Assembly: GCF_011059185.1 (NCBI RefSeq) | Contig: NZ_JAALFE010000006.1 | Location: 62,001 to 126,000, forward strand | Origin: Paragemmobacter kunshanensis | GTDB taxonomy: Bacteria > Pseudomonadota > Alphaproteobacteria > Rhodobacterales > Rhodobacteraceae | Length of the DNA: 64,000 bases | Direction of reading: 5' to 3' | Part shown: positions 12,452-38,495 of the stretch, piece after piece | How positions within the stretch are numbered: position 1 is the stretch's first letter | Layout of the letters: the number at the start of each line of letters is the position of its first letter | Position numbers and translations under genes: made by a program | Notes under the pieces: generated by a model | What the model was told of the DNA's origin: nothing | The model's database searches: none | What the model saw: only the letters and a program-made list of their open reading frames with translations

Positions 12452-12931
12452 ATGCCCAAACGACTGAAAATAGGGGATGTTTTCGCAGTGCCCCTTCCGA
12501 ACGGGACGGCTGGGTATGTCCAATACGTCGCCGATGACGCGTCAATGCTCGATAGCTATGTGATCAGGGTGTTCCGGGGAGTATACGACCTAGCCGGTCC
12601 TCTAGACATTGCCGAGGTAGTGTCACTGGAGGTTGCATTCTACGCGCATGTCTTTCTCAAGGTCTGCGTAATGCACGGATTCTGGAAGAACGTAGGCAAC
12701 GCCCCAGTACCCGACAGAATTGAAGTGCTCTTTCGTGGCTGCTGGGACGATGGAAACCCGGACGTAAAGGTTTCGCGGCGTTGGTATGTATGGCGGATTA
12801 ACGAGCCTTTTCAGGAGATTGGAACTTTGAGCCCCACGTATGAAAAGGCAGAGATCGGAAGTGTCTTGCCGCCGCAAAGCATTGTCGAGCGGATGGTCAC
12901 CGGAAGGTACACCTTGGGACAGCCATTATAG
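12452..12931 (+). CDS. Imm26-like immunity protein (orphan)
   Basis: 159 residues, soluble. The start KRLKIGDVFAVPLPNGTAGY and the following beta-rich stretch (VQYVADDASM, IRVFRGVYD) resemble the Imm26 immunity family, whose members protect against polymorphic-toxin effectors. No toxin or secretion gene lies beside it, so it would be an orphan immunity gene against toxins of competing strains (inference). Codon and base use is lower in G+C than the neighbours, consistent with transfer. It is the only gene in the mini-island at tRNA-Gln. Confidence 0.55.
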   Translation: MPKRLKIGDVFAVPLPNGTAGYVQYVADDASMLDSYVIRVFRGVYDLAGPLDIAEVVSLEVAFYAHVFLKVCVMHGFWKNVGNAPVPDRIEVLFRGCWDDGNPDVKVSRRWYVWRINEPFQEIGTLSPTYEKAEIGSVLPPQSIVERMVTGRYTLGQPL

Positions 12932-13046
12932 TGCTCCTTTGTTTATCGAGACTGCCTATAGCCCTACTTGCCGTTTCATTTGCCACACGGGATGCCCCAC
13001 CCGCCATCCGCTACCGCAGAGACCCCTTGGCGGCCTCCATAGGTCA

Positions 13047-13068
13047 TCGAGTCCTAGCGCCCCAGCCA
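13047..13068 (+). repeat. Duplicated tRNA-Gln 3' end (att site)
   Basis: TCGA, one variable base, then TCCTAGCGCCCCAGCCA matches tRNA-Gln positions 12227-12248 with one mismatch (G for A at 13051). It includes the CCA end. Upstream bases TAGGT are also shared, with a short indel. Confidence 0.85.
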
Positions 13069-13180
13069 AAACCTTGTTCCCATGACATTTCAATCCCCGC
13101 TCGGCTCAGCGTTGTCCTATGGCGCCAGCGGTGCTAGGCAATTCTTGCGGCGTGTGGGCCGCGGCTTGCCGGGTGCGACC

Positions 13181-13435
13181 ATGGGGATCGAAAGTCTGTT
13201 TGTCATGCTGTTGGTCGGCGCGGTGGCCGGCTGGATTGCGGGAAAGCTGGTTTCCGGCTCTGGCTTCGGGCTGCTGGGGAATATGGCGGTGGGCATCCTT
13301 GGCGCCCTGATCGCCAGCTTCCTGCTGCCCCGTCTGGGATTCGGCTTTGGGGGCGGCGTGCCTTCGGCCATCCTCCATTCCACCATCGGCGCGGTGATCC
13401 TGCTGATCGTCATCCGGCTTATCAAGCGGGCCTGA
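13181..13435 (+). CDS. GlsB/YeaQ/YmgE-family membrane protein
   Basis: 84 residues with three hydrophobic segments and the family pattern VGAVAGWIAGKLVSGSGFG followed by GNMAVGILGALIASFL. The family is small inner-membrane proteins associated with stress responses (also called transglycosylase-associated). Biochemical function is not known. The ATG at 13181 gives the family's usual N-terminus; upstream codons in frame do not match it and overlap the island boundary. It ends 32 bp before a bidirectional terminator. Confidence 0.85.
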   Translation: MGIESLFVMLLVGAVAGWIAGKLVSGSGFGLLGNMAVGILGALIASFLLPRLGFGFGGGVPSAILHSTIGAVILLIVIRLIKRA

Positions 13436-13467
13436 AGCGCCACGCTCGGCTCTGGCCCGGAATGGAA

Positions 13468-13492
13468 AAAGGCCCGCCTGTGGCGGGCCTTT
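13468..13492. terminator. Bidirectional terminator between the YeaQ-like gene and nrdJ
   Basis: AAAGGCCCGCC/GGCGGGCCTTT, an 11-bp stem with loop TGT, has A and T tracts on the two sides. It serves the rightward gene ending at 13435 and the leftward nrdJ ending at 13516. Confidence 0.85.
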
Positions 13493-13515
13493 CCTGTCTG
13501 GCGACAGCGCCGGGA

Positions 13516-16500
13516 TCAGCTGCACCCGCTCGTGCCGCCGCAGGTGTTGCACTTCATGCAGGTGCCGTTGCGCACCAGCGTGTAGTTGCCGCATTCCCCG
13601 CAGGGATCGCCCTCATAGCCCTGCATCTTGGCCTTGGTGCGCGCATCCATGCTGACCGTGCCCGAGGCAAGCGCCGTGGTTGCGCCACCGCCCATGGTTT
13701 CGGGGATCAGCGTGTTCAGCGCGGCCACCGGATCCGTGCCGGTGGAGAGCGCTGTCGCCCCCATCCCGCCCTGGAACACCACAAGCTCTTGCGGCAGCCG
13801 CTTGCGCAGATAGCCGGTCGAGGAGATGGAGCGCAGCAGTTCCACCGACTTCGACGCAGCCGACTCGCTCACTTCGCCGAAGTTGCGCTTGCCCTCGTCA
13901 TCGCCGCGGCCGAGATCGTCGAAGGCGGCGCCTTGCGGTTTGACATGTGCGAGGTCGGTGCGGTCGAGATACGAAATCGCCAGTTCGCGGAAGATATAGT
14001 CAAGGATCGAGGTCGCGTTCTTGATCGAGTCATTGCCCTGCACCATGCCCGCCGGTTCAAAGCGGGTGAAGGTGAAGGCCTCCACGAATTCCTCCAGCGG
14101 CACGCCATATTGCAGGCCGACAGAGACGGCGATGGCGAAGTTGTTCATCATCGCGCGGAAGCCGGCACCTTCCTTGTGCATGTCGATGAAGATTTCGCCC
14201 AGGCGCCCGTCGCCATATTCGCCGGTCCGCAGATAGACCTTGTGGCCGCCCACGATGGCCTTCTGGGTATAGCCCTTGCGACGTTCGGGCAGCTTTTCGC
14301 GGTTGGTGCGGATGATTTCCTTCACCACGATCTTTTCGACGATCTTCTCGGCCAGAACGGCGGCCTTTTCCTGCGCGGACCCGGTGGCGAGGATCTCTTC
14401 GGCCTCTTCGTCATCCTCGACCAGCGCCGAGGCGAGCGGTTGCGACAGCTTCGACCCATCGCGATAGAGCGCGTTGGCCTTGATGCCCAGCGAGTGCGAC
14501 AGTTCATAGGCCGCCAGCGTTTCGGCGATGCTGGCCGAGTTGGGCATGTTGATCGTCTTGGAAATCGCGCCCGAGATGAAGGACTGCGCCGCCGCCATCA
14601 TGTGGATGTGGCTGTCGACCGACAGGTAGCGCGTGCCCTTCTTGCCGCAGGGATTGGCGCAGTCGAAGACCACGTAATGTTCCGGCTTCAGGAAGGGCGC
14701 GCCTTCCAGTGTCATCGTTCCGCAGACGTGATCGTTGGCGGCGTCGATCTGGGCCTTGGTAAAGCCAAGGTGGCGCAGCAGATCGAAGGTGGGATCGGCC
14801 AGTTTCTCGGCCGGGATGCCCAGGGTGCCCTTGCAGAATTCCTCGCCCAGCGTCCACTGGTTGAAGACGAAGCGGATGTCAAAGGCCGAAGGCAGGGCCG
14901 CGTCGATCTTTTCCAGCTCGCGCGGGCCGAAGCCATGCCCGATCAGCGCGGTATGGTTGATGCCGGGGCAGTTGCCCAGGCTGCCGTGACCCACGGCATA
15001 GGCGACGATCTCAGCGATCTGCGACGAGGCATAGCCCAGCGTCTCAAGCGCGGCAGGCACCGACTGGTTGATGATCTTGAAATAGCCGCCCCCGGCCAGC
15101 TTCTTGAACTTCACCAGCGCGAAGTCGGGCTCGATCCCGGTCGTGTCGCAATCCATCACAAGGCCGATGGTGCCGGTGGGTGCGATCACCGTGGTCTGGG
15201 CGTTGCGATAGCCATGCGCCTCGCCCATCGAAAGCGCCTCATCCCAGGCGGATTTCGCAAGCGCGACAAGGTTTTGATCGGGGCAGTTCACCTGATCCAG
15301 CGCGACGGGGTTGACGTTCAGCGCCTCATATCCCGCGGTTTCGCCATAGGCGGCGCGGCGGTGGTTGCGGATCACGCGCAGCATATGCGCGGCGTTGCGG
15401 GCATGGCCCGGGAAGGGGCCAAGCTCCTTGGCCATCTCGGCCGAGGTGGCGTAGGTCACGCCCGTCATCAGCGCGGTCAGCGCCCCGCACAGCGCGCGGC
15501 CTTCCTTGCTGTCATAGCCAAGGCCCATGTTCATCAGCAGGCCGCCGATATTGGCATAGCCAAGGCCAAGCGTGCGGAAATCATAGGAAAGCTGCGCGAT
15601 CTCCTTCGAGGGGAACTGCGCCATGGTGACCGAGATTTCCAGCGTCACGGTCCAGAGCCGCGTCGCATGCATATAGGCGGCGGCGTCGAACTTGCCGTCC
15701 TTGTAGAAGGTCAGCAGGTTCATCGAGGCCAGGTTGCAGGCCGTATCATCCAGGAACATGTATTCCGAGCAGGGGTTCGATCCGCGGATCGGGCCGTCTT
15801 CGGGGCAGGTGTGCCAGGCGTTCACGGTATCATGGAACTGGATCCCTGGGTCGGCGCAGGCCCAGGCGGCGTGGCCCACCTGATCCCACAGATCGCGCGC
15901 CTTGATCGTCTTGGCGACCTTGCCATCGGTGCGGCGGATCAGCGCCCAATCCTCGTCGTTCTTGACCGCGTTCAGGAAGGCATCCGTCACGCGGACGGAG
16001 TTGTTGGAGTTCTGGCCGGAGACGGTGATGTAGGCCTCGGAATCCCAGTCGGTGTCATAGGTCGGGAATTCGATCGAGGTGAAACCCTGACGCGCATATT
16101 GCAGGATGCGGTTCGTATAGGTGTCGGGGATCATCGCCTTCTTGGCAGACCGGATCGCCGCCTTCAGCGAGGGGTTCTTCGACGGGTCGACCGCATCTTC
16201 GGACGATCCGTCCCATTCCCGGATCGCGGCGAAGATCTCGTTCAGCTTCTGCTCATGCGCCTTGGAGCCGGCGACGAGAGAGGCGACCTTCTGCTCTTCG
16301 ATCACCTTCCAGTTCACGAATTGCTCGATATCGGGGTGATCCATGTCGCAGATCACCATCTTGGCCGCGCGGCGCGTGGTGCCGCCCGACTTGATGGCGC
16401 CCGCCGCGCGGTCGCCGATCTTCAGAAAGCCCATCAGGCCCGAGGATTTGCCGCCGCCCGACAGTTTCTCGCCCTCGCCGCGGAGGGAAGAGAAGTTGGT

Positions 16501-17196
16501 GCCGGTGCCCGAGCCGTATTTGAACAGCCGCGCCTCACGGACCCAGAGGTCCATGATCCCGCCTTCGTTCACCAGATCGTCGCTGACGGACTGGATGAAG
16601 CAGGCATGGGGCTGCGGGTGTTCATAGGCCGAGTCGGACTTCGTCAGCTTGCCCGTCTGGAAATCGACGTAGAAATGGCCCTGCGACGGGCCGTCGATGC
16701 CATAGGCCCAGTGCAGGCCGGTATTGAACCACTGGGGGGAGTTCGGCGCGGCCATCTGGCGCGCGAGCATGAAGCGCATCTCGTCGTAATAGGCGCGGGC
16801 GTCGGATTCGGCGGTGAAATAGCCACCCTTCCAGCCCCAATAGGCCCAGGCGCCTGCCAGACGGTCAAACACCTGCTTGGCCGAGGTTTCGCCGGTGAAG
16901 CGTTCGGCCTGCGGAAGTTCGGCAAGTGCGGCCTCATCGGGGACAGAGCGCCACAGGAATTCGGGAACGCCCTTTTCCTTCACGCGCTTGAGCCGCGCGG
17001 GCACGCCGGCCTTGCGGAAATACTTCTGCGCGATGACATCCGAGGCGACCTGGCTCCAGCCTTCGGGGACTTCCACCGCATCGTTGCGGAAGACGACCTT
17101 GCCATCGGGATTGCGGATTTCCGAAGTCGTCGTCGCAAAGGACATGGCCCCATAGGCGCCGGTCGTCTCGGTGGTAAACTTGCGCTCGATCTTCAT
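13516..17196 (-). CDS. nrdJ: Adenosylcobalamin-dependent (class II) ribonucleotide reductase
   Basis: 1226 residues, normal for the long class II enzymes of alphaproteobacteria. It reduces ribonucleotides to deoxyribonucleotides using a thiyl radical formed from B12. Seen motifs: PHACF with the first redox cysteine (C199); the central NPCSEY with the radical cysteine and glutamate; and a C-terminal zinc-ribbon-like tail with CGECG and CMKCNTCGG carrying shuttle cysteines. The ATG at 17196 is chosen because homology starts at [16 protein letters not shown]; the frame continues upstream without family similarity. A NrdR-like site covers the likely -10 box, so repression by NrdR is expected. Confidence 0.97.
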
Positions 17197-17353
17197 CGCT
17201 GCCCCGTCTCCAGTTATGGCAGGGCCTGCGCCCCGTCCGATGTTTCTACCTGCCGCAAGACAAGGCTTCGCCACCCCCTGCCCCGTGGACAAAGGATCAA
17301 GGCAGCGCCAAGGCCGCCCCTTCTGCCGAGTTCTTTGCTTTGCCTCCCGGTAG

Positions 17354-17390
17354 CCACTACATCTTGTGGCCGTCCCGTCGGCTTCGTCAA
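17354..17390 (-). promoter_or_regulatory. nrdJ promoter with overlapping NrdR box
   Basis: On the minus strand TTGACG (17385-17390) and CAAGAT (17361-17366) are separated by 18 bp. CCACAAGATGTAGTGG (17354-17369) covers the -10 and fits the NrdR-box pattern (ACAC-w-A-t-A-T-a-T-w-GTGT), with mismatches at the two ends and at two central bases. Only one box is evident; a second at 21 or 31 bp was looked for and not seen. The rest of the 407-bp gap 17197-17603 shows no gene and no recognisable cobalamin riboswitch. Confidence 0.55.
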
Positions 17391-17603
17391 ACTGTCGTAA
17401 ACCGTGACTGCATTCAACGGGAATTTTGGGGTCCTGCGGGCGATTTTTCGCTTGACTGTTTTCCTGCAACAGGTCGGCGGAACGCCGCCATTCTGTGGAC
17501 AGCCCGGTGGAAAAACACCGGCGAAACTTTGGGACATCGGCGAATTCTGGCGCAATCGCGCGGGCTTGGATCAGGGATTTCACGGCAAGGTTGAATATGG
17601 CGA

Positions 17604-18524
17604 TCAGCGCCCTGCCCCGCCCCCCTGCGATTCCCTGCCGGGGACAGGCCTTCGGTTGATCAGCGCAATTCCCACCGCAACCAGCAGCGCCGCCCCCAGA
17701 AGCGCCGGAGAGACCGACTCACCCAGCAGCGACCAGCCCAGGAAGATCGTCAGGATCGGGGTAAGGAAAGAGAAACTGGCCACCGTCGAGGGCGGATAGA
17801 CCGACAGAAGCCAGAGCCATCCGATAAAGCCCCCCGCCACAACGATGGAGGATTGGAAGATGACACCCACTACATGTAGCGGTGTCACTTCGCGGATCAG
17901 GGGGCCGAAGGCGGGCGAGAGCAGAATCAGGATCGGCCCGGAAACCAGCACCATCCAGAAGAGCTGCATCTCGGGCCCCGCCGCCTTCAGCCGCGAGACA
18001 CGGGCGATCATCGCGGTGCCCGCCCAGCCAAGCGCGCCCCCCAGCGCCAGCAGATCCCCGGCAAGGCTGCCCGCCCTGTCGCCATCGCGCGACAGGATCG
18101 CCCAGGCGGTGCCCAGAAAGGCCAGCGCAAGCCCCAGCGCCCGCTGCGGCACCAGCCGTTCGCCGGGCAGCAGGAAATGCGCCATCAGCGCGAACCAGAC
18201 CGGCATCGAATAGAAGATGACAGAGGCGCGGCTGACGGCGGTCAGGTCAAGCGCCAGGAACAGGCACAGGAACTCCGCCGCAAAGACCGTGCCGATCAGC
18301 AGGCCCGGCAGCAGATCGCCCCTTGTCAGCCGCGGCGGCCGTCCCCGCCAGGCCATCCAGCCCGCCACGAAGACCACCGCCAGCACCGAACGCAGCCCGG
18401 CAAAGAATACCGGCTGCAGCCCGTCATTGATCCATTTCACCAGGATCTGGTTGAAGGCCAGCAGCAGCGTCACCGCCAGCAGCGCCCCGGCGCCAAAGGC
18501 GTCAAGCCTGTCCTTCCGCTGCAT
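17604..18524 (-). CDS. DMT-superfamily (EamA) transporter
   Basis: 306 residues with ten hydrophobic helices in two EamA repeats. The second repeat ends [20 protein letters not shown], the usual EamA signature. These inner-membrane carriers export or import small metabolites; the substrate cannot be told. The ATG at 18524 is preferred over an upstream TTG because GGGGAAG precedes it. It is divergent from fur with 134 bp between. It is one of five EamA-type carriers in this window. Confidence 0.88.
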
Positions 18525-18658
18525 CTTCCCCGCCCCTCCCGGCCGCAACGCCCGGCCTGTCCCGGCGGTGGCGTCGAATCGACATGCAAGACGTTAGCAC
18601 TGGTCCCGCGCGACCGGATCACGTAAATCCGGCGCAAGGGAAGAAGGAAGGGCACGGG

Positions 18659-19069
18659 ATGGCGGATATCATCGCCCGCTGCGAGGCCAGGGGTCTGCGC
18701 ATGACGGATCAGCGCCGGGTCGTGGCCCGCGTCATCGGCGATGCCGAAGACCACCCCGATGTCGAAGAGCTGTATGCGCGGGCCGCCCGCATTGATCCGC
18801 GCATTTCCATTGCCACGGTCTATCGCACGGTGAAGCTGTTCGAAGAGGCGGGCATCCTCGACAAGCTTGAGTTCGGCGATGGGCGCGCGCGCTATGAAGA
18901 TGCCGAACGCGACCACCACGATCACCTGATCGACGTCAATTCCGGCGACGTGATCGAATTCGTGGATCCCGAGATCGAGGAACTGCAGGAACGCATCGCT
19001 GCGCGCCTTGGCTACAGGCTTGTCGGGCACCGGCTGGAACTGCTGGGCGTGCCGATCAAGAAACCCTGA
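18659..19069 (+). CDS. fur: Fur/Mur-family metalloregulator
   Basis: 136 residues. The winged helix holds GLRMTDQRRVVARVI and ISIATVYRTVKLFEEAG. The metal/dimer domain holds RDHHDHLIDVNSGDVIEF and ends GYRLVGHRLELLGVPI. This is the alphaproteobacterial Fur/Mur type, which in relatives of the order often senses manganese (Mur) and not iron. Irr-type features are absent. No C-terminal CXXC zinc site is present. A DMT transporter follows after 2 bp, probably in the same transcript. Confidence 0.9.
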   Translation: MADIIARCEARGLRMTDQRRVVARVIGDAEDHPDVEELYARAARIDPRISIATVYRTVKLFEEAGILDKLEFGDGRARYEDAERDHHDHLIDVNSGDVIEFVDPEIEELQERIAARLGYRLVGHRLELLGVPIKKP

Positions 19070-19071
19070 CC

Positions 19072-19968
19072 TTGGACAATGCATCGCAGAACCTGCGCGG
19101 CATCGCGCTGATGGTCGCCTCCATGGCGTTCTTCGCTGTCGAGGACATGTTCCTGAAACTCGCGGCTGCCGAAATGCCCGTGGGCATGGTCATCTTTGCC
19201 GCCGGGGCCTTTGGCGCGCCGATCTTCATGCTCATGGCCCGGGCCGAAGGTGGCCGCACGCTGACCCGCGCCGCCCTGCATCCCGCCGTGCTGGCGCGCA
19301 ATCTGGGCGAGATGGTCGCCACCTTCGCCTATCTTACCGCCCTGGCCGTTGTGCCCCTGTCCACGGTTTCGGCCGTGCTTCAGGCCCTGCCCCTTGCCGT
19401 GACGCTGGGCGCCGCCGTGATTCTGCGCGAAAGCGTGGGATGGCGGCGCTGGTCGGCCATCGCGGTGGGCTTCACCGGCGTGCTGGTGGTGATCCGCCCG
19501 GGCCTTGACGGCTTTCGCCCCGAGGCGCTTTGGGTTCTCGTCTCGGTGGCGGGGCTTACGCTGCGCGATCTTGCCACCCGCGCGATCCCGCCCGATTGCA
19601 CATCGGCGCAGGTTTCGGCCTGGGGCCTGCTTTCCGTCGCCCTTCTGGGGGCGGGCCTGATGGTCGAGGGTGGCGCGATGCGGCCCGACGGGGTTCAGGC
19701 GGCGACGCTGCTGGGGGCGGTCGCCTTCGGCACGGTGGGCTATTGGCTGGTGGTATCGGCCTCGCGCACGGGGGAAGTGGCCGTCGTGGCCCCCTTCCGC
19801 TATACGCGGCTTGTCTTCGCCATCGCCATCGGCTGGGCGGTTTTCGCCGAAACGCCCGACCTGCCGATGCTCATCGGGGCCACGATGATCATCGGTTCGG
19901 GCCTTTACGCGCTGGCACGCGAACGTGCCCGCAAACGCGCCCTTTCCTTGCAGGGCCACAGCCGCTAA
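19072..19968 (+). CDS. DMT-superfamily (EamA) transporter
   Basis: 298 residues, about ten hydrophobic helices. The first repeat starts GIALMVASMAFFAVEDMFLK and the second ends ATMIIGSGLYALARERARK. A TTG at 19072, 2 bp after the fur stop, is the likely start because it matches the usual length; the first in-frame ATG lies 14 codons later. Closeness to fur suggests co-transcription, and possibly metal-responsive expression, but the substrate is unknown. Confidence 0.85.
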   Translation: MDNASQNLRGIALMVASMAFFAVEDMFLKLAAAEMPVGMVIFAAGAFGAPIFMLMARAEGGRTLTRAALHPAVLARNLGEMVATFAYLTALAVVPLSTVSAVLQALPLAVTLGAAVILRESVGWRRWSAIAVGFTGVLVVIRPGLDGFRPEALWVLVSVAGLTLRDLATRAIPPDCTSAQVSAWGLLSVALLGAGLMVEGGAMRPDGVQAATLLGAVAFGTVGYWLVVSASRTGEVAVVAPFRYTRLVFAIAIGWAVFAETPDLPMLIGATMIIGSGLYALARERARKRALSLQGHSR

Positions 19969-33291: not shown

Positions 33292-34110
33292 TCACTCGCA
33301 GTCGACGCAACCCGTCAGCTTGTGATCCATCGACACGGCCGGCTGCGAACAGCCCGCCTCGCCCACGATCTTGGCCGGAACGCCCGCAACCGTCTTCATC
33401 GGCGGGATATCCTGCAACACCACCGAACCGGCCGCGATGCGCGAGCAGTTGCCGATGGTGATATTGCCCAACACCTTCGCCCCCGCCCCGATCAGCACGC
33501 CATTGCCGATCTTCGGATGCCGGTCGCCATCCTCTTTCCCCGTGCCGCCCAGCGTCACGGAATGCAGCATGGAAACATTGTCGCCCACCACCGCCGTTTC
33601 GCCGATCACGATGGAATGGGCGTGGTCGATCATCAGCCCCTTGCCCACCCGCGCGGCGGGGTGAATATCCACCCCGAACACTTCGGACACCCGCATCTGG
33701 ACGAAATAGGCCAGATCCTTGCGCCCCTGCGTCCAAAGCCAATGTCCGATGCGATAGGCCTGCACCGCCTGATATCCCTTGAAGAAGAGAATGGGCTGGA
33801 TATAGCGATGGCAGGCCGGATCGCGGTCATAGACCGCCATCAGGTCCGCCCGCGCCGCCGCCCCCAGTTCCGGGTCGCTGTCATAGGCCTGATCGGCGAT
33901 TTCCCGAAGGATCTGCTCGCTCATCTCGCCACTCGCCAGCTTCAGCGAAAACCGATAGGCCAGCGCGCGTTCCATGCCGGAATGATGCAGCAGGCTGGAA
34001 TGGATCAACCCGCCCAGCAGGGGTTCCGTGGCGATGGCCTCGCGCGCCTCGTCACAGACGCGGGTCCAGACCGGATCGACGGTTGTCACTTTTGCTCTGG
34101 TCTCGGCCAT
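33292..34110 (-). CDS. cysE: Serine O-acetyltransferase
   Basis: 272 residues, usual length. The N-terminal helical domain (about 1-145) is followed by a left-handed beta-helix of hexapeptide repeats (GVDIHPAARVGKGLMIDHAHSIVIGE, then VTLGGTGKEDGDRHPKIGNG). The active-site His-Asp pair is in MIDHAHS. It makes O-acetylserine for cysteine synthesis. The ATG at 34110 fits family length. The same frame is open for a further 111 codons upstream into a GTA-associated small gene, with no stop between. Confidence 0.97.
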   Translation of the reverse strand: MAETRAKVTTVDPVWTRVCDEAREAIATEPLLGGLIHSSLLHHSGMERALAYRFSLKLASGEMSEQILREIADQAYDSDPELGAAARADLMAVYDRDPACHRYIQPILFFKGYQAVQAYRIGHWLWTQGRKDLAYFVQMRVSEVFGVDIHPAARVGKGLMIDHAHSIVIGETAVVGDNVSMLHSVTLGGTGKEDGDRHPKIGNGVLIGAGAKVLGNITIGNCSRIAAGSVVLQDIPPMKTVAGVPAKIVGEAGCSQPAVSMDHKLTGCVDCE

Positions 34111-34443
34111 GCTGCGCCCTCCGCTTTGGACTGAACGCATATCATATAGGCGCGGCGGAGGACAGGCCAACCATGGCCTCGCCCGCCATTCCTCCAGCGC
34201 AAGGCAGGCCCGCGCCAGCGCCAGCGGCGCGACCCCGCCGCCGCCCCGTGGCCCGGCAGCCGAAACCGGCCCCAGCCGCGACATCAGGCTGCCATTTCCC
34301 CAGCGCGGATGCGGGCGGCGAAAGCGGTCCATGTAGCGATGCGCGGCATGCACTTCGGCCAGCACCGCCTGCGCCCGCTCCTGCGGCGCGGCCTCCAGAT
34401 AGGCGGCCAGCGCCAGCAGATCCCCGATCAGGACGCGCCGCAT
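34111..34443 (-). CDS. GTA-associated small protein, open in frame into cysE
   Basis: 111 codons from ATG 34443, starting MRRVLIGDLLALAAYLEAAP and containing RRPHPRWGNGSLMS. This resembles a short helical protein encoded beside the GTA tail gene in Rhodobacteraceae (DUF7742 type, from memory). The start overlaps the stop of the upstream fusion gene (ATGA). No stop codon occurs before the cysE start, so either a 383-residue fusion with CysE is made, or cysE is translated from its own ATG and this part is decaying. The normal family stop should fall near codon 90. A +1 frame ends at 34142. Confidence 0.5.
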
Positions 34444-36872
34444 CAATCCACCGCGATGCCGCGATACGGCCCCGGCCCAAAGCGCTGGGACACCTGCGCC
34501 ACCTCGATCCGCACCGGCCCCGAACCATCGGCCAACCTCTCGGCATTGCCATAGGTCCAGTCCGGCGTGCCGACCTCCACCGTCCGAAGCACCAGCCCGT
34601 CCCGCATGACGCGCAGGGAATAGGCTTCCCGCTCCTCGCCCAGCGGCACTTCGACCGATTCCCAGCTGTCCCCGTCGATCCGGCTCCGCCGGACCCACGT
34701 CACCCGCAACCCTCCCGCAACGGCCCGCGCCCGCAGATGCGCCACCGCATAGGGCCGCAACCCGATCCCGGCAAAGGCCAGGCGGCGCTCCTCCACATCG
34801 GGATCGTCGAATCCCCGATCCGCCGCCCCGATCCGCCATGTCCGCTCCAGCCCGCGCAGCGACGCGGGCAGATCCACCTGCGTCACCGCCGGGTCGATCA
34901 GCACGATCCGGCTGCCCGCGGGCCAGAAGTCGGGCATCCCCGCCTCGGTCCCGCATTGCCCGCGCAGCCGCAGCGACAGCGCCCAGAGATCCGGCCCCTC
35001 CAGCACCGCCTCGGCGAACTGGAACAACTCCCAGCGATCCGCGCTGCCATCCCCGATCGCGGCCAGATTGGCCCCGTTCAGCACCGCCCCCCGCAGCGCC
35101 GCTGCAGGCGCGCCCCCCGCAAAGCGCACCCGCAGCGCGGGCCCGCGGTCCCACAGGCCCGGCCGCGCGGCGGGCAGGGCATTCTCCGTCTCGCCGATCA
35201 CCGCGGCCTCTGTCCGCACCCCGTTCAGCACGAAGCCATCCGCCCCATCCGCCGCCCACAGCGCCACCCGCCCGGGCCAGGGCCGCGCCGCCACCGCCAG
35301 ATGCGGCGCATGAGGCACTTCCTGCCCCGTCATCAGCGGCAGGTCCATGAAGACGGGATAGACCGGCACCGCCGGCAGAAAGGCCGGAATGCGGCTCTTC
35401 TCGCCCCGGTCCGGGCCGGGCAGGTAAACCCCCGGCTCCACCCGCGCGGCCTCGGCCATCAGGGCCTCGGCCTGTTCCAGCCGGTCGATCCGCCAGCGCT
35501 GCCCCTCCAGCGTCACCACATCGCCGATCCCCACCCCCATCGCCGAATAGGGCAGCGCAAAGCGCGCAACCTCCCGCGCCACCCGCGCCTCCGACAGCCA
35601 GCGCTCCGCCATCCGCCGCGCCTCTTCCGGCAGCAGCGCCAGCGGCACATCCTGATCCAGCGCCCCCGCCCCGGCATGATCCGGCCGCAGGACATCCGCC
35701 ACCAGACGGCGGAACTCCCCCTCGGCATCCAGATAGGACAGCCGCAGCCGCCCCGCCGCCTCGCCCTCGCCCGCGCGCTGGATCGACAGCGCGCCTTCGT
35801 CGCCGCCTTCCACCAGATCCCCCGTCCCGAACCCGGCCACGGGCCGCGCGCCCCGGCGCAGGAAGGCAAGCTTCCCACCGCGCTCCACCGCATCGAACCC
35901 GCAGGACAGCATCAAGGGCTGGATTGCCGCCCGCCCCGTCGAGAGGTTGTCCAGCGCATAGCCCCGCACAACCCCCTGCACCCGGTCCAGATCCGGCAGG
36001 TCCAGCCCCGCGCGCTCGGCAATCTCGGCCAGCACCGCCTCAACCGGCTGCGCCGTCGCCCGCCCGTTCAGCCAGTGCCCCCGCGCATGGTTCGGCCCGT
36101 CCGACCAGACATCCTCGCGCAGCGGAAAGGCCGGAAAGGGCCGCGCATCCCAGGCCCAGGCATGGGCATTCTCCAGATCGACCATCGGCCCGCCATAGAC
36201 AGGCGATACCGGATTGGCCTCTGCCTGCCCCCAGTAGCCCGTGACCGCCCGGTAGTATTGCATCTGGATCAGGTCATCCCGCATCCCCGCCGAAGCGCGC
36301 GGCAAGGCCCCCTCGGACGAGGCCGCATCCTGAAACAGGTTGGGCTGGTTCGTGCCCTTGTCCACCGCCGGGCAGCCATATTCATCCGCCCAGGCCGCGT
36401 CGAATTGCGGCCCGCGCAGGCTTTCGGGGTCATGGGCCGAAACCACCTGCGCCACCGCGCCATTGGGCCAGACCAGCCGCTTGCGCCCCCCCTCCCAGAC
36501 CGGGCGGCGATCCGGCGGCGCACAGGCCAGGATCCCGCTTTCGCCGAAGATCATCACCTCGCGCACCTGATCCACCGTCTCGCCCACCAGCGCCACCCGC
36601 CGCGCCCGGCCCGCATCCGCGGGCCCGGCCCCCTCGACCTGCCCGCGCACCCATTCCGCACCCGCCCGCGTCTTGCCCGCGCCGCGCCCGCCCATGATCA
36701 CCCATGTCCGCCAGGCGCCATCCGGCGCGATCTGATGCGGCAGCGCCCAGAACTCGAACAGCCAGGGCAGCGCCAGAAAGGCCCCCTCGCTCAGCCCGTG
36801 CAGGAACTCAGTCACCGCCTCCGGCGTCGCGGAGGCGAGCCAGACGGCGCCCGATCTCAGCCCGCGCAGCAT
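34443..36872 (-). pseudogene. GTA scar: terminase ATPase N-terminus fused to GTA host-specificity (gp15-like) C-terminus
   Basis: An 809-codon ORF made of two unrelated GTA proteins. Residues 1-164 match the large terminase of RcGTA-type clusters: LPWLFEFWALPHQ, Walker A GGRGAGKT (about 61-68), LVGETVDQVREVMIFG, and SLRGPQFDAAWADE, ending exactly at Walker B (D163-E164). From about 165 the sequence is the part of the tail/host-specificity protein after its TIM-barrel domain: YGCPAVDKGTNQPNLF, NPVSPVYGGPM, WAWDARPFPAFP, through to RFGPGPYRG. The terminase C-terminus and nuclease domain, portal, capsid, tail genes and the N-terminal half of the tail protein are missing. The join is in frame. 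A TTG at 36929 is an alternative start. No packaging function is expected; a decayed, still-open relic is likely. Confidence 0.85.
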
Positions 36873-37137
36873 CGAGGTCGAGAGCGCGCTCTCCGACGAC
36901 GCCGGCCACTTGGTTGCGAAGCCTGTCAACTTTCACCCTCTCGTCCATAAGCACGGCCAAGGCCGCCTGCAGATCGCGCACGGCCAGCAAGGTCCGCCCC
37001 GATCCTTCCGCGCCCTGTCCGCGCATCGCCTCCAGGGCCGCCGCCACATCGGCTGCGGCGGCATCGAAAACCTGCAACGCATGATCCAGCAGCTCCGCCC
37101 CCATAAGGGGCGGCCTGCCCGTGCTACCATCCTGCAT
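36808..37137 (-). CDS. GTA gene-1-like protein (small terminase type)
   Basis: 109 residues, largely helical (LLAVRDLQAALAVLMDERVKVD, ALDLDAARAEIGRRLARLRDA). Size, helical content and position directly ahead of the terminase, overlapping it by 65 bp, match gene 1 of RcGTA-type clusters, whose product acts as a small terminase. It seems intact although its partner is truncated. The start could also be the ATG at 37104. A sigma-70 promoter lies about 100 bp upstream. Confidence 0.65.
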   Translation of the reverse strand: MQDGSTGRPPLMGAELLDHALQVFDAAAADVAAALEAMRGQGAEGSGRTLLAVRDLQAALAVLMDERVKVDRLRNQVAGVVGERALDLDAARAEIGRRLARLRDAGGGD

Positions 37138-37319: not shown

Positions 37320-38495
37320 TCAGTCCTGCACGCCCCCCGCCTCGGCCTCGCCGCGTTCCGCCTCGATCGCGCGCCAGCGGGCGACATTCTCGTTATGCTC
37401 GGCCAGGGTGCGGGCAAAGGCATGCCCCCCCGTGCCATCGGCCACGAAATACAGCAGATCCGTCTCCTCCGGGTTCAGCGCCGCCTCGATGGACAGCCGC
37501 CCCGGATTGGCGATGGGCGTCGGCGGCAGCCCGTCGATCACATAGGTATTCCACGGCGTCTCGCGGCGCAGCTCGCTCTGCCGCAGCCCGCGCCCCAGCA
37601 CACCCTCGCCCCGCGTCACGCCATAGATCACCGTCGGGTCGGTCTGCAGCCGCATCCCCTGCTCCAGCCGGTTCACGAAGACACTGGCCACCCGGCGGCG
37701 CTCCTCGGCGATGCCGGTCTCCTTTTCAACGATCGAGGCCATGATCAGCGCCTCTTCCGGCGTGTCATAGGGCAGCCCCTCGGCCCGCGCGGCCCAAAGC
37801 TCGGCCAGCGCCGCGCTCTGCCGCGCCGCCATCTCAGCGAGCAGCGCCGCGCGATCCGCGCCCCGCGCCACCTCATAGCTGTCAGGCGCCAGCGTCCCCT
37901 CGGGCGGCACCTCGGCAATCTCGCCGGTCAGGAACTCCGCCCGCTTCAGCGCATCCACCACCTGCCAGCTTGTCACGCCCTCGGCCAGCGTCACCCGCCA
38001 GCGGATATCATCCGCCTCTGCCACATCCACATAATCCGCAGGCGCCGCCTCGGCCGCCGGATCGAATTTCACCACCTCGACATAGCGGTTCGTCGCCGGG
38101 TCAAGCTCGCGCAGCACCACCTCGCTCGTCGCGACCGAGATGCGGAAATTCACCTCGCGCCCGCAGGTCGATTGCCCCCCCGCCGTCAGCGATTCGAGGA
38201 TCTGGGTCATGCTGCTGCCCGGTACCACCAGGTAGGACCCGAATTTCAGCGCATCCGCCCGGCCGGAATAATCCGCCCCGATGCGGAAGATCCGCGCATC
38301 CGATACCGCCCCCTGCTCCTCCAGCGCGCGGCTCACCGCCGAAAGCGACGCCCCCCGCTCCACCCGGAAGCAGATGGATTGCTCCAGCGGCCCCGGCCCG
38401 GTGAACTGCTCGCGCCCCCAGGCCAGCAGCCCCGCCGCCGCCACCATCACCACGACGAAAAGCGTCAGCGCATTCGAGGCGATGGACCGCCACAT
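37320..38495 (-). CDS. mltG: Endolytic transglycosylase MltG
   Basis: 391 residues. One N-terminal membrane helix (NALTLFVVVMVAAAGLLAW) is followed by a LysM-like region and the YceG catalytic domain. The catalytic Glu is in IMASIVEKETG; LQTDPTVIYG and NTYVIDGLPPTPIANPG are typical. It cleaves nascent peptidoglycan strands in the periplasm and sets chain ends. Start and fabF stop overlap by 1 bp (TGATG). The pair fabF-mltG before the GTA locus is a conserved Rhodobacterales arrangement. Confidence 0.95.
   Translation of the reverse strand: MWRSIASNALTLFVVVMVAAAGLLAWGREQFTGPGPLEQSICFRVERGASLSAVSRALEEQGAVSDARIFRIGADYSGRADALKFGSYLVVPGSSMTQILESLTAGGQSTCGREVNFRISVATSEVVLRELDPATNRYVEVVKFDPAAEAAPADYVDVAEADDIRWRVTLAEGVTSWQVVDALKRAEFLTGEIAEVPPEGTLAPDSYEVARGADRAALLAEMAARQSAALAELWAARAEGLPYDTPEEALIMASIVEKETGIAEERRRVASVFVNRLEQGMRLQTDPTVIYGVTRGEGVLGRGLRQSELRRETPWNTYVIDGLPPTPIANPGRLSIEAALNPEETDLLYFVADGTGGHAFARTLAEHNENVARWRAIEAERGEAEAGGVQD

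Follow-up and report, generated by a model that had tools for sequence, protein, structure and literature searches.

A terminase-megatron fusion recurs with an identical codon join at the GTA site of Rhodobacteraceae

The mltG-cysE interval of Paragemmobacter kunshanensis carries a single open frame in which the front of an RcGTA-type large terminase (terL) continues, in frame, as the back of the megatron (gp15), and we find the same codon join, W-x-D-E followed by the x-G-C of the megatron, in all 37 fused loci recovered. The original prediction, drawn from the window alone (the whole stretch of 64,000 nucleotides that was analysed), held that GTA loss had left an open chimeric gene here, and in this it was correct; what it took for a clean single scar is a recurring allele present in 37 distinct genomes, no two of which are at least 93% identical over 1 kb. 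A bolder reading, which we think less likely than not, is that a codon-exact deletion allele is maintained family-wide, by trans-species polymorphism or by directed recombination, and that its terL::megatron protein has been co-opted for a new role under purifying selection.

GTA release lyses the producing cell, which raises the question of how the trait survives against non-producers. A recognisable non-producer allele provides a sequence marker with which producer/non-producer dynamics can be traced in strain collections of any kind. A directed deletion would represent a new kind of programmed change in bacterial genomes, and the chimera, if it is truly maintained, a new gene assembled from two unrelated phage genes.

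RESULTS

The chimeric gene and its locus

The features of the locus, all on the reverse strand, are as follows.

33292..34110 (-), cysE, the downstream flank of the GTA site
34276..34446 (-), DUF7742 region, at the end of the chimera
34443..36929 (-), chimeric ORF terL(N)::megatron(C), 828 codons from TTG, one open frame
34446..36380 (-), megatron (gp15) C-terminal part: end of the TIM domain, central and fibre-binding regions
36381..36386 (-), junction: terminase Asp GAT and Glu GAA (the Glu common to both parents), then megatron Tyr
36381..36926 (-), large-terminase part with P-loop GGRGAGKT and Walker B WADE; the terminase C-terminal part is missing
36808..37137 (-), g1-like ORF, intact, in the small-terminase position, preceding the chimera
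37320..38495 (-), mltG, the upstream flank of the GTA site

The chimera joins 182 N-terminal residues of the terminase to 645 C-terminal residues of the megatron, and homologous full-length fused frames occur in genomes G007, G017 and G002 (G000 is the source genome of the window; other G numbers are genomes compared). The predicted pairing of a terminase front with a gp15-like back is borne out by profile searches: Pfam Terminase_6N matches chimera residues 77-183, GTA_TIM (profile positions 204-299 of 299) matches residues 173-268, Phage-tail_3 and Rcc01698_C also match, and PHROGs and NCBIfam NF048004 are in agreement. The join had been placed just after the TIM barrel, but it sits inside the GTA_TIM domain, of which that final stretch is kept. 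Against the megatron equivalog NF048004 the chimera scores 710.1 bits over profile positions 640-1295 of 1299, below the curated cut-off of 800, and its residues 169-822 match residues 640-1298 of the chain in PDB 6tba. From residue 183 onward, alignment gives a megatron (77% identity to that of relative G018) and not a normal terminase tail. The terminase part is 90-93% identical to the intact terminases of the source genus in six of ten cases and 75-78% identical in the other four. Both the P-loop and the Walker B motif of the ATPase are present; the Walker B Asp-Glu pair exists as described, though at D181-E182 when counted from the codon after TTG and not at D163-E164.

The location between mltG and cysE, an interval that we take to be the RcGTA site and that the ten intact clusters of the source genus fit as such, was rightly called, and the g1-like ORF (g1 being presumably the small terminase) and the chimera frame are indeed intact. 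Judged as a functional RcGTA, the source locus has the mltG-cysE site with g1, while a complete terminase and megatron with structural genes between them are absent. The lost stretch amounts to about 11 kb (it measures 10,997 bp in the intact relative G018), less than the roughly 14 kb first estimated. We detected g1 in 33 of the 37 fused loci; the g1 of G007 equals that of G018 across the 115 residues compared. The g1 frame of fused locus G701 (L368) is shortened to 55 codons.

As to a second GTA cluster in the source genome, the terminase C-terminal part, which holds the nuclease, has no match anywhere in G000. Three more megatron-like genes lie elsewhere in this genome at 37% identity (C36:15671-17665, C59:2250-4172 and C48:8667-10676) and are perhaps of prophages. 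An assembly error at the join is unlikely, since the same join is present in other genomes, including the single-contig G007 and Defluviimonas aestuarii JCM 18630.

What the product could do

A terminase needs its nuclease and a whole ATPase fold to package DNA; the chimeric protein has lost the nuclease and the second half of the ATPase, and it probably does not package DNA. If the product acts, the part left intact is the hub/fibre-binding C-terminal half, and the protein may have a role in tail-fibre binding or exert a dominant effect on how particles assemble. The corresponding region of the RcGTA megatron contains, according to PMC7296036, a central domain attached to the tail and a fibre-binding domain. 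In two AlphaFold runs, made without an intact-terminase control, pLDDT stayed below 50 over most of residues 1-290 and was mostly high from about residue 290 onward.

The regulator offered no means of dating the loss: all 34 fused genomes tested have a match to PF20057, which we take to be linked to GafA; in G715 the match is in two pieces.

One join across the family

Searches were run with the whole chimera or with a 221-residue junction query. Within the source genus the fusion is present in 4 of 19 genomes: comparison with intact G018 reveals the deletion, and the same fusion recurs among sister genomes. Genus g68 has it in 10 of 54 genomes and genus g402 in 3 of 13. Broader samples returned 17 of 394 genomes for the family (about one genome per genus), 19 of 390 for the order (a sample that overlaps the family sample and contains only the source's family) and 2 of 385 for the class, both again within the family; among named genomes, 3 of the 80 loci returned are fused, namely Defluviimonas aestuarii and two MAGs, one of which is G017. 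The fused share amounts to 4% in the family-wide sample and 19-23% among the species sampled from the three genera. Outside the source's family none of the 106 matched genomes of the class sample is fused; this absence is weak evidence, as only about 30 of these genomes had at least two matches and about one fusion would be expected among them at the family rate.

No near-miss join occurs among the matches listed. Nine other damaged GTA loci that we examined, G036 and eight in g68, have different breakpoints. The eight g68 loci (L389-L396, in G702, G700, G679, G475, G713, G517, G690 and G624) vary among themselves. Like the source locus, the remnants in G036 (inferred to be Pseudoroseicyclus tamaricis), G700 and G702 place a terminase N-terminal part near a megatron C-terminal part; unlike it, they break at about T66|M330 (G036) or T141|M742 (G700), and the G702 terminase runs past the junction codon.

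Little DNA is shared at the two sites. In the ten intact clusters of the source genus they have 2-4 bp in common in register (GA, GAA, CGA or GAAT), with GA common to both sites in all ten; in g68, judged by eye, up to about 7 bp are shared. The W-x-x-E pattern earlier ascribed to both parents holds only in part: its W is not constant in megatrons (relatives have IRFTE and IVFTE), and the DNA actually shared in the source genus is the 2-4 bp just given. Across the same ten clusters, the in-frame repeats between terminase and megatron number 12,697-19,098 at 4 bp or more, 171-480 at 8 bp or more and 16-67 at 10 bp or more. With so many in-frame repeats available, random microhomology deletion at 2-4 bp cannot yield the same codon join so often, and the proposal of chance recombination at a W-x-x-E microhomology is not supported, given the identical join of 37 genomes. 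The wobble bases around the join differ between lineages, however, so that an ordinary sequence-specific recombinase is not obvious either.

Scatter of the fusion and typical flanks

On a tree of the megatron part with 128 rows, 21 of them fused, the fused label needs 17 changes, 12 of which are forced by well-supported branches; label shuffles gave a mean of 19.6 changes, with 15-21 of 500 shuffles as low as 17, and the 107 non-fused rows, not all individually confirmed intact, include the damaged G021 and G031. The label is slightly clustered across this tree, its distribution nearly but not fully random. A tree of two genera (43 rows, 13 fused) requires 10 changes, 8 of them forced, against a shuffled mean of 11.3, and the N-part tree exhibits no clustering of fused rows (9 changes against a shuffled mean of 8.6). 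A single vertical event is not supported by this scatter, as sampled.

Where the comparison can be resolved, the closest relative of a fused locus is an intact genome on either side of the join (G007 with G018, G002 with G009-G011, G689 with G688 and G701 with G699), and no foreign tract is seen at the join in G007, G002, G689 or G701; G000, G017 and several g68 genomes have no relative near enough for flank windows to decide. Fused G007 and intact G018 share 97.4-97.9% DNA identity on both sides right up to the join, where their blocks overlap by 2 bp; the first mismatch lies 15 bp away on the left and 50 bp away on the right. Contig L265 of the viral set, whose interior is intact, is as close to G007 as G018 is (99.0% over 479 bp shared). 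The mltG+fabF tree likewise places G007 with G018 and G002 with G009/G011. We found no shared tract near the join that would mark common descent of the fused alleles. The g1/terminase N-part seems to recombine between species in g68 (L348-L367 and L368-L376): G709 and G712 differ by a pS of.07 in the N-part and.59 in the C-part, and the N-part tree is star-like.

Constraint on the fused frame

Of the 36 fused frames that can be evaluated, 31 are open throughout. The other five (Bin31, G097, G354, G707 and G564) are broken, and the frame of G180 ends at a contig end. The Walker B Asp-Glu is kept in 37 of 37 fused loci, and G584 has a Gly-to-Glu change in the P-loop.

Four fused g68 species (G646, G584, G715 and G085) form a 100/100 clade in a megatron tree of 30 g68 rows. 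The mltG+fabF tree, in which all g68 rows are fused, joins the same four (99/95); in a cysE tree that includes 20 intact rows the clade is not recovered, but it is not rejected either (p-AU 0.446). Within this group, simple Nei-Gojobori estimates put dN/dS at 0.045-0.156 in the terminase part and at 0.037-0.084 in the megatron part, where dS is near saturation. In the C-part, pN is.066-.119 at a pS of.62-.74, against a median of.162 (range.077-.233) in 160 intact pairs with a pS of.60-.75, a comparison into which saturation brings older pairs and in which several of the closest pairs lie at about.08-.09; in the N-part, pN is.017-.092 against an intact median of.043 (range.016-.089). From these substitution patterns, both halves of the chimera look about as constrained in the four species as in intact clusters. 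If the four had fused separately and recently, the low dN/dS would predate fusion, and recombination with intact relatives could refresh the fused sequence and hence produce an apparent constraint. Pairwise dN/dS ratios in the source genus are low too and do not separate fused from intact loci. Several fused rows have longer end branches than nearby intact rows (G000, G017 and G002 in the family tree, G707 in the two-genus tree), and this may reflect some relaxation.

DISCUSSION

Known systems

Like the head-tail cluster of RcGTA (Rhodobacter capsulatus), the source locus has the mltG-cysE position, g1, the N part of the terminase and the C part of the megatron; it differs in lacking the terminase C part, the megatron N part and all that lies between them, with the remaining ends fused. 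The megatron Rcc01698 (PDB 6tba/6teh) has in its residues 640-1298 the counterpart of the chimera's megatron half, but its iris/penetration domain, its adhesin-like domain and most of its peripheral domain, going by the residue ranges in PMC7296036, are replaced in the chimera by the terminase N part. Pseudogenised or lost alphaproteobacterial GTA clusters (PMC10883770) resemble the source locus in being non-producers by loss of cluster genes, and differ from what we report, namely one codon-exact in-frame join that recurs in 37 genomes, most of them with an open frame. The word "fused" does not turn up in a search of that paper. We found no published report of a terL::megatron fusion in the literature searched, which lay mostly outside subscription journals.

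Origin of the fused allele

The locus is a GTA-null allele: a deletion of about 11 kb, running from the Glu of the terminase Walker B to a Glu near the end of the megatron TIM domain, has left g1 and the in-frame terL(N)::megatron(C) gene. The explanation that we rank highest, at somewhat under an even chance, is that a single old non-producer allele has been kept in populations while recombination homogenised its flanks. The join would have arisen once in the family Rhodobacteraceae and would persist beside the intact cluster. Recombination with intact relatives would keep the flanks of the fused allele typical of each species as far as the join, and short transferred pieces would hardly restore the 11-kb interior. 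Common descent of one allele explains both the identical join and its scatter, and recombination explains why each fused locus has the flanks of its own lineage; the low dN/dS of the four-species group also counts in its favour, and non-producer GTA lineages have been proposed in PMC10883770. Against this reading stand the lack of a shared tract near the join, the strong demand that both states persist family-wide, the five broken frames and the longer end branches of several fused rows. It predicts both states inside single species; no polymorphism within a species was seen in our genome sets, which contain a single genome for each species, or in the viral contigs scanned, which gave no clear same-species pair.

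The main rival to a single old allele is a directed, recurrent deletion, in which a recombination process repeatedly joins both sites in the manner of a programmed excision of the GTA interior. We consider it unlikely. In its favour are the exactness of the join in the G007/G018 pair, where the two sites share only GA and no foreign tract is seen, the GA found at both sites in every intact cluster measured and at least 12 forced state changes in the megatron tree. The lineage-dependent wobble bases are not what an ordinary recombinase site would have, however, and the terminase C-part was not relocated in any of 19 fused genomes tested. That search, which covered the terminase C-part of the interior, also speaks against a relocated interior: the C-part is present in 7 of 8 other genomes tested, G036 being the exception. 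A plasmid or phage donor of the fused allele was likewise rejected, as none of 14 plasmid and 154 phage records with a match covers 80% of the junction query.

Chance deletions followed by selection for one in-frame chimera, the sole join with a useful or harmless product, would fit the predominance of open frames, the invariant Walker B pair, the low dN/dS of the four-species group and the longer shared DNA seen by eye in g68. We regard this account as improbable, and weaker because neighbouring joins are not seen among the matches listed. The ten clusters of the source genus offer hundreds of in-frame repeats of at least 8 bp, and the structure predictions, run without an intact-terminase control, do not show a well-folded chimera, given their low confidence over residues 1-290. 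Least probable of all, in our estimation, is a plain pseudogene scar, a one-off deletion left open by chance and without function. The loss of the GTA interior, the decay of some copies (the five broken frames), the shortened g1 of G701 and the altered P-loop of G584 are in keeping with such a scar, but 37 identical joins refute a one-off origin, and the four-species group retains a low dN/dS, with synonymous sites in its C-part near saturation.

Two further matches were noted in the searches. In G750, a 32,612-codon open frame around a megatron-like match (C1:1672699-1673097) is probably an artefact. The viral contig L434 (IMGVR_UViG_3300037857_000061), which has no exact junction motif, matches residues 55-813 of a fused query at 50% identity.
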